Positions 61,297 through 61,839 of a DNA stretch of 64,000 bases are shown piece after piece. The stretch comes from Pedobacter sp. FW305-3-2-15-E-R2A2 (lineage in GTDB: Bacteria > Bacteroidota > Bacteroidia > Sphingobacteriales > Sphingobacteriaceae), in NCBI RefSeq assembly GCF_038446955.1, contig NZ_CP151803.1, positions 1,054,001 to 1,118,000 on the forward strand, in the 5' to 3' direction. A program made the position numbers and the translations under genes. Under the pieces are notes generated by a model. The model was not told the origin of the DNA and made no database searches. It worked only from the letters and a program-made list of their open reading frames with translations. The stretch's first letter is position 1. Every line of letters begins with the position of its first letter.

Positions 61297-61338
61297 AAAA
61301 GATGGCCTTTTGAACCTTTTTTAAAGGCCATCTTTTTT
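61297..61338. terminator. Terminator between the YdeI-like gene and the peptide gene
   Basis: AAAAGATGGCCTTT pairs with AAAGGCCATCTTTT (14 bp) across a 12-base loop, with T-rich sequence on the plus side and T4 on the minus side. It serves both convergent genes. Confidence 0.85.
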
Positions 61339-61352
61339 AAACCCGGTTTAGG

Positions 61353-61580
61353 TTAATTGAGTTGGGGAGGGTAACCGCAATCTGATGCTGAACCTCCTTC
61401 GGGGAAAGAGTCTACGCCAGGTATTGAGCCATCCGCGCATAATGTTCTACAGGAATGCTTCGATTTTACAGTCCCGGTATAACAGAAACAATTACAACCA
61501 ACAGGGTCGTGCGGGCCTCCGCCCATGACATGTTTCAAATCTTTTCTTGATAACTTTTGAACCTCTTTTAAATTTCTCAT
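61353..61580 (-). CDS. Double-glycine-leader cysteine-rich peptide (bacteriocin-like)
   Basis: The 75-residue precursor has a leader (1-21/22) VQKLSRKDLKHVMGGG of the Bacteroidota double-glycine type, expected to be cut by a C39-peptidase ABC exporter. The core of about 53 residues holds six cysteines (29, 31, 33, 44, 48, 68) and many Gly/Ser/Pro, which suggests three disulphides or modification. No exporter, modification enzyme or immunity gene is adjacent, so processing must be by a distant system. It could be a bacteriocin, a signal or a surface peptide. Confidence 0.72.
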   Translation of the reverse strand: MRNLKEVQKLSRKDLKHVMGGGPHDPVGCNCFCYTGTVKSKHSCRTLCADGSIPGVDSFPEGGSASDCGYPPQLN

Positions 61581-61839
61581 AATGTCTTTTTTAAGTTTTT
61601 AAATTCGGCTACGAATCAATGTAGGCTTAAACTAAATATAACAATTATAATTGGTAATTGATTAATTGTAAATAATTAAGTCTGATTGTGTTGTTTGTGT
61701 ATCTATTTGTTTAATTGTTGCCTGATTTTAATGTAATATGATAGGATTTGCTACCTTTTGTTTTTCGGTTTTACCATAATTTTACGAAATTTGATAGTAT
61801 TCAAAGTTGATGTAGTTTTACGTAAAAAGGTAATGCGTA

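Follow-up and report, generated by a model that had tools for sequence, protein, structure and literature searches.

Among the known systems nearest to the peptide analysed here are the bacteroidetocins, a proposed class IIf of Bacteroidota peptides that, in the description by Coyne et al. (2019; PMC6671954), combine a GG leader, a Cys-containing core and a C39-type ABC exporter. As described there, the leader has 15–16 aa and the mature peptide 35–50 aa, bacteroidetocins A and B contain four Cys and all contain at least two, and the genes form a compact locus with a TM protein; most loci also carry a thiol oxidoreductase, deletion of whose gene attenuates activity, and both GG cleavage and disulfides were supported by experiment (PMC6671954). 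The Pedobacter peptide is similar in its GG leader, its richness in Cys and the presence of C39-ABC exporters and an oxidoreductase in the genome. Measured against that description, however, its 21-aa leader and 54-aa core both fall outside the class IIf lengths, it has six Cys with a CxCxC cluster, and it is encoded by a single gene, with the C39 exporters and the oxidoreductase elsewhere rather than in a compact locus. Because the lengths and the locus organisation disagree with those described, we did not file it as a bacteroidetocin. We consider it fairly probable that this single-gene locus specifies a secreted, disulfide-bonded, bacteriocin-like peptide that uses a C39-ABC/HlyD exporter and a VKOR–DsbA oxidase, both acting in trans.

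The window, by which we mean the whole 64-kb stretch of DNA that was analysed, belongs to a 7.59-Mb genome assembled as one contig (99.99% complete). It contains an ATG-to-stop ORF of 75 codons on the minus strand at 61353–61580, stop included (genome C1:1115353–1115580); the plus strand has many stop codons across the same interval, and the earlier note on this peptide had named no strand. The encoded 75-aa peptide consists of a leader of residues 1–21 (61518–61580, minus strand), ending in GG at residues 20–21 with a predicted C39 cut after G21, and a 54-aa core of residues 22–75 (61356–61517, minus strand) that holds all six Cys, at residues 29, 31, 33, 44, 48 and 68, in the spacing C-x-C-x-C-x10-C-x3-C-x19-C. 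Minus-strand translation, together with the alignment of eight family members, thus bears out what the note had claimed, a Bacteroidota GG leader joined to a core with Cys at these positions. The leader follows an LSRxxLKxxxGG-type pattern, which we take to be a hallmark of C39-processed GG-leader peptides, and the six-Cys peptide was the only ORF in the 64-kb window that fitted it.

A Pfam search with the peptide returned no family and a PDB sequence search with its profile returned nothing at E ≤ 1; an AlphaFold2 model from eight sequences reached a pLDDT of 44 and was left unused. When the leader was compared with named models, weak matches were found to TIGR04149 (GG_sam_targ_CFB, with a cut-off of 25 bits; the protein scored 22.8 bits, E = 6e-5, and the genome scan gave 25.0 bits) and to NF047798 (leader_Chryseo, ‘bacteriocin-like protein’; 16.3 bits, below the cut-off of 23.5). 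The earlier statement that a CxCxC cluster plus three more Cys matches no familiar class holds for the core, whose CxCxC is rare among 156 collected GG-leader peptides; the leader has the weak matches just given.

Full-length members of the family were found in 6 of the 145 genus genomes, namely our own (G000), G134, G089, G135, G051 and G014; the listing of eight matching genomes also included G076 and G104, which had weak, partial matches in longer ORFs and were excluded as members. A profile search of 399 family genomes, sampled from a larger family and not including G134, added two full-length members from another genus (G211 and G344), and at least 45 of these genomes matched the peptide profile at E ≤ 0.01, mostly through weak leader matches; the counts from this search are lower bounds because of the sampling and because at most 14 candidates were scored per genome. 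A contig scan also located the peptide in P. steynii DSM 19110 and Pedobacter sp. KBW06, loci that were kept out of the member count. Alignment revealed that the six core Cys are invariant in all eight members across two genera, and that L10, S11, R12, G20 and G21 are kept in all eight as well, so that the leader, whose lack of conservation in homologues the earlier note had named as grounds against its proposal, is conserved throughout. Between our copy and those of G134, G089 and G135, dN was about 0.03–0.26 and dS about 0.2–1.4, three methods gave dN/dS values of 0.10–0.25, and 10 of 15, 16 of 23 and 37 of 67 changes, respectively, fell at third codon positions. The peptide ORF is a real, conserved gene under purifying selection.

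The nearest profiled neighbours of the gene are HTH/WYL, DUF1761, OmdA/YdeI, DUF4180 and MsrA. In agreement with the claim that no exporter or modifying enzyme lies beside the peptide, we found none among the profiled neighbours, including no class I lanthipeptide dehydratase or cyclase genes, and the 64-kb window contained neither a C39 match at E ≤ 0.01 nor a match to the HlyD protein at E ≤ 1e-20. The surroundings of the gene are the same in our genome and G134, partly alike in G089 and G135 and different in the other four members; because they vary, we regard the peptide gene as a single-gene unit. Upstream, an alignment of six sequences pointed to a possible Bacteroidota −7 element, the box TATATTTA at 61633–61640 on the minus strand; the consensus of this element is TAnnTTTG. 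At the same place in the alignment stood TATATTTA in our genome and G134, TATATTTG in G135 and G051, CATATTTA in G089 and TACATTTA in G014, the TATATTTA/G box being present in four of the six members with one change in the remaining two. A sigma-70 promoter scan gave 3 sites against 2.2 expected and was not relied on. The OmdA gene converges on the peptide gene, and an unstranded inverted repeat read by eye in the interval between them, AAAAGATGGCCTTT...AAAGGCCATCTTTT at 61297–61336, may be a two-way terminator; a scan for inverted repeats with a loop limit of 8 did not report it. The OmdA gene carries the Pfam title ‘Bacteriocin-protection, YdeI or OmpD-Associated’ and was considered as an immunity gene. 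By eye it adjoins the peptide gene in our genome and G134, lies 2.2 kb off in G089 (L051), and did not appear in the 3-kb loci read for the remaining five. Because its position beside the peptide gene is inconsistent among members, this role was not adopted, and no immunity gene for the peptide was identified.

The word orphan, applied to the peptide in the earlier note, is apt for a single gene with no local partner, but not for the genome as a whole, which offers sister GG peptides, C39 exporters and a putative cysteine oxidase in trans. Outside the window, 78 kb from the peptide gene, lies a tandem array that encodes some 17 GG-leader peptides (genome C1:1032809–1037692; L009 12809–17692). 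Sixteen of its ORFs fit the leader pattern, fifteen with six Cys and one with five, and an extra ORF (L009 16951–17118) starts too late to fit. The Cys of the array mostly follow the frame C-x3-C ... C-x5-C-x4-C ... C, a spacing unlike that of our peptide; the leader is therefore common to both and the core is not. No exporter was present among the ORFs listed around the array. Corresponding pattern matches numbered 19 in G089 (L112), 10 in G134 (L111) and 2 in G135 (L113).

The whole collection of GG-leader peptides comprised 156 distinct sequences, of which 110 have exactly six core Cys; CxCxC occurred only in the eight family members and one other peptide. When cores were clustered at 40% identity, those with two or more Cys gave 73 even clusters and one odd (77 clusters in all, three with 0 or 1 Cys standing outside this ratio). 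ORFs cut off by the end of a sequence and cores shorter than 15 aa had been excluded, and clusters may still share ancestry. The search pattern is blind to Cys, although it was such peptides and exporters that guided the choice of loci. Even parity of this kind fits paired cysteines, as in disulfide peptides. Fourteen further stretches divided into four with pattern-fitting, Cys-rich ORFs (L165, L168, L177 and L178), eight holding a lantibiotic dehydratase and no pattern-fitting ORF (L166, L167, L169, L171, L172, L173, L175 and L176), and L170 and L174, which fit neither type.

A C39 search of the genome returned five matches, four of which are full-length C39-ABC exporters with the Cys and His of the C39 domain in place in the alignment. 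The absence of any GG-processing exporter, which the earlier note had also named as grounds against its proposal, is thus not what we found. The best candidate exporter is a C39-ABC and HlyD pair at genome 1,554,001–1,557,510. No pattern-fitting GG peptide was found in the 20 kb read near this pair, and such peptides were found in 0 of 5 own-type exporter loci, those of our genome and four close relatives. At about 0.181 Mb, two Cys-free GG-leader peptides (L036 6937–7143 and 7633–7839) lie upstream of a C39-ABC exporter that scored 523.2 bits, just below the bacteriocin_ABC cut-off of 523.85. At about 0.584–0.593 Mb (L034 7173–16402) a C39-ABC is accompanied by thiopep_ocin-domain, LanC-like and luciferase-like proteins and a Cys-rich GG precursor, and at about 5.62 Mb (L037 9956–17977) by Lant_dehydr_N and LANC_like proteins; judged by their domains, both are lanthipeptide-type loci.

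The fifth C39 match is a 527-aa membrane protein (genome C1:2005329–2006912; L038 9329–10912) in which C39-like, VKOR and DsbA-like parts are fused. A PDB sequence search with this protein returned nothing at E ≤ 0.01. In its structure model (pLDDT 83), residues 6–140 resembled the peptidase domain of PCAT1 (8vp5; Z 16.1) and that of the PCAT solved with a leader peptide (6mpz; Z 15.6), residues 174–306 resembled VKOR-like 6wv8 (3.1 Å over 132 residues; Z 13.7, barely above the level warned of as a common helical arrangement), and residues 366–527 resembled ScsC/DsbA-type proteins (6nen; Z 17.6, 2.6 Å over 156). Alignment of 31 of the 35 oxidoreductase sequences (L105, L108, L152 and L159 were left out) revealed that the VKOR-type Cys 210, 218, 285 and 288 and the CxxC of the last, DsbA-like domain are invariant in all 31. 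Pfam recognised C39 and Thioredoxin_4 in 31 of 31 and VKOR (PF07884) in 16 of 31; PF07884 did not match our own protein at E ≤ 0.01 and did match that of G344. Membership of the VKOR family is indicated by the VKOR fold in the model, with its Z near the helical-fold warning level, by the loop Cys pair and by the CxxC. In the eight C39-like domains aligned with the exporters, the positions of the Cys and His that we assume to be catalytic were changed in every case, the DP motif was never whole and its aligned Asp was kept in five. We propose the 527-aa protein as a candidate cysteine oxidase whose degenerate C39 domain is possibly a docking domain for GG leaders.

The oxidoreductase was present at E ≤ 1e-20 in 68 of the 145 genus genomes, the HlyD type in 70 (counted at E ≤ 1e-90; 100 of 145 at E ≤ 1e-20) and both in 58 (Fisher p = 4e-18), and all six Pedobacter genomes with the peptide had both, compared with 58 in the full set of 145 (Fisher p = 0.0035); because some genomes with both parts are close relatives, these p-values overstate independence. 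Both members from the other genus, G211 and G344, also encode the oxidoreductase. Among 36 HlyD loci, our own included, 35 contained a C39-ABC and 25 contained the oxidoreductase, the latter not an unbiased rate because many of the 20 stretches among these loci had been picked for a known GG peptide or an own-type exporter. Every one of the 25 oxidoreductase-bearing loci contained a Cys-bearing GG ORF that fits the pattern (one Cys in L100, two in L103, and in each other locus one or more ORFs with at least three), and the 11 loci without the oxidoreductase gave a pattern match only in L099, which is lanthipeptide-like. In L117 the oxidoreductase lies just beyond the end of the stretch, and a GG ORF was not found within it. 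Fourteen exporter loci had been picked from the HlyD list blind to GG peptides, a subset of the 20 stretches from which L110–L113 and L118, collected with other aims, and L114 were left out; 11 of them contained a GG peptide whose Cys numbered at least four, whereas none of 20 distal control stretches taken within the genus did, also when all frames were rechecked. One control stretch, L132, gave a weak match to the peptide profile (E = 5.6e-4), and its translation had no start before the match and no pattern.

In relatives the parts can stand together. In the G344 locus L178, genes for a C39-ABC, HlyD and the oxidoreductase adjoin those for three six-Cys GG peptides. Our peptide resembles those of the GG-peptide/C39-ABC/HlyD/VKOR-type loci of relatives (such as L178, L101 and L128) in its leader pattern and in having six or more Cys in even number; it differs in lying outside such a cluster and in its core, each component being present in the genome. 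Two genomes speak against the association: G008 has an own-type exporter and the oxidoreductase without the six-Cys CxCxC peptide, though it carries another six-Cys GG ORF (L165), and in G010 the GG ORFs of L168 are rich in Cys while HlyD is broken and no oxidoreductase match was found at E ≤ 1e-20. A LytTR response regulator cluster was found in 15 of the 36 exporter loci and a His_kinase cluster in 5, with one profiled member each. Such genes stand near GG peptides and exporters, for example at L108 2881–3606 and L109 396–1511, which suggests that expression is regulated by peptides.

With the gene conserved, all of the parts present in the genome and these parts clustered in relatives, we infer a route that includes export, disulfide formation, leader docking, killing and the choice of the serving exporter. 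A C39 peptidase-ABC exporter would recognise the GG leader, cleave it behind G21 and export the 54-aa core; the best candidate for this step is the C39-ABC/HlyD pair at 1.554–1.5575 Mb, close to which no pattern-fitting precursor lies. The six Cys would be converted into three disulfides by the C39-like/VKOR/DsbA-like membrane protein at 2.005 Mb, whose C39-like domain lacks the catalytic Cys and His and may dock the leader. The secreted product would most likely act against competing bacteria. The candidate exporter and oxidase are tied to this peptide presumptively, and three other full-length C39 exporters are encoded in the same genome.

The peptide might instead be a pheromone, a GG-leader signalling peptide that is exported by a C39 protein and sensed by a histidine kinase/LytTR pair, and not a killing peptide. 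The LytTR and His_kinase clusters in the exporter loci would agree with this, as would the weak matches of the NF033383 induction-factor model to two family members and of the NF033215 BlpC model to one. However, the profiled neighbours of the gene include no kinase or response regulator, and a short signal should need fewer than six invariant Cys in a 54-aa core, and we think signalling an unlikely function. Modification in trans by the lanthipeptide loci at 0.584–0.593 Mb or 5.62 Mb, which would make the peptide a lanthipeptide precursor, appears improbable. Although the genome does contain thiopep_ocin-domain and LanC-like proteins with a GG precursor (L034) as well as Lant_dehydr_N and LANC_like proteins (L037), and Ser and Thr together number nine in the 54-aa core, the leader of the peptide is unlike that of the L034 precursor, the eight dehydratase stretches named above, all from relatives, hold no pattern-fitting ORF, and L099 is the sole lanthipeptide-like match to the leader pattern that was seen. 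The even parity of Cys would likewise be expected of disulfides, not thioethers.

The name of TIGR04149, which matched all eight family members at E ≤ 1 and with which our leader scored at or just below the cut-off, raises the possibility of an rSAM-modified RiPP such as a sactipeptide. The leader is weakly alike, but a search limited to the SPASM type (TIGR04085) gave 0 matches in our genome at E ≤ 0.01, with 10 of 14 control genomes positive, and the profiled neighbours include no SPASM-type enzyme; we hold such a modification to be very improbable. Hardly more credible is a cytosolic or metal-binding small protein in which the GG is incidental: the CxCxC cluster could bind metal and the locus is a single gene, yet the same leader pattern is carried by the 156 collected peptides with largely different cores, also beside C39 exporters, and GG and LSR are invariant across the family.

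Under the preferred reading, that of a secreted disulfide-bonded peptide served in trans, this group probably makes many bacteriocin-like disulfide peptides, ours among them, and the data point to a large, partly unlinked stock of six-Cys secreted peptides in Pedobacter and its relatives. Because the exporter and oxidase lie far away, cluster-based mining would miss genes like this one. The C39-like/VKOR/DsbA protein can now be named as a testable folding enzyme for six-Cys peptides. More tentatively, this fusion could dock GG leaders and oxidise many unlinked precursors, which shared C39-ABC/HlyD transporters would then export. If this is true, it would be a leader-guided disulfide installer for the peptide, for the array 78 kb away and for others; a literature search of freely accessible papers, preprints aside, found no publication on an installer of this type. 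Should the fusion bind GG leaders, it would open a general route to peptides rich in disulfides, and its degenerate peptidase domain would serve a new purpose.

We also observed a separate GG-leader family in stretches from another genus (g14; L057, L059, L060, L069 and L072), the cores of which start with CxCF or CxC and have CC near the end. In L057, L059, L060 and L069 this family adjoins genes that, judged by eye, are the same in each, for an ABC-transporter ATPase and a GatC-like protein.
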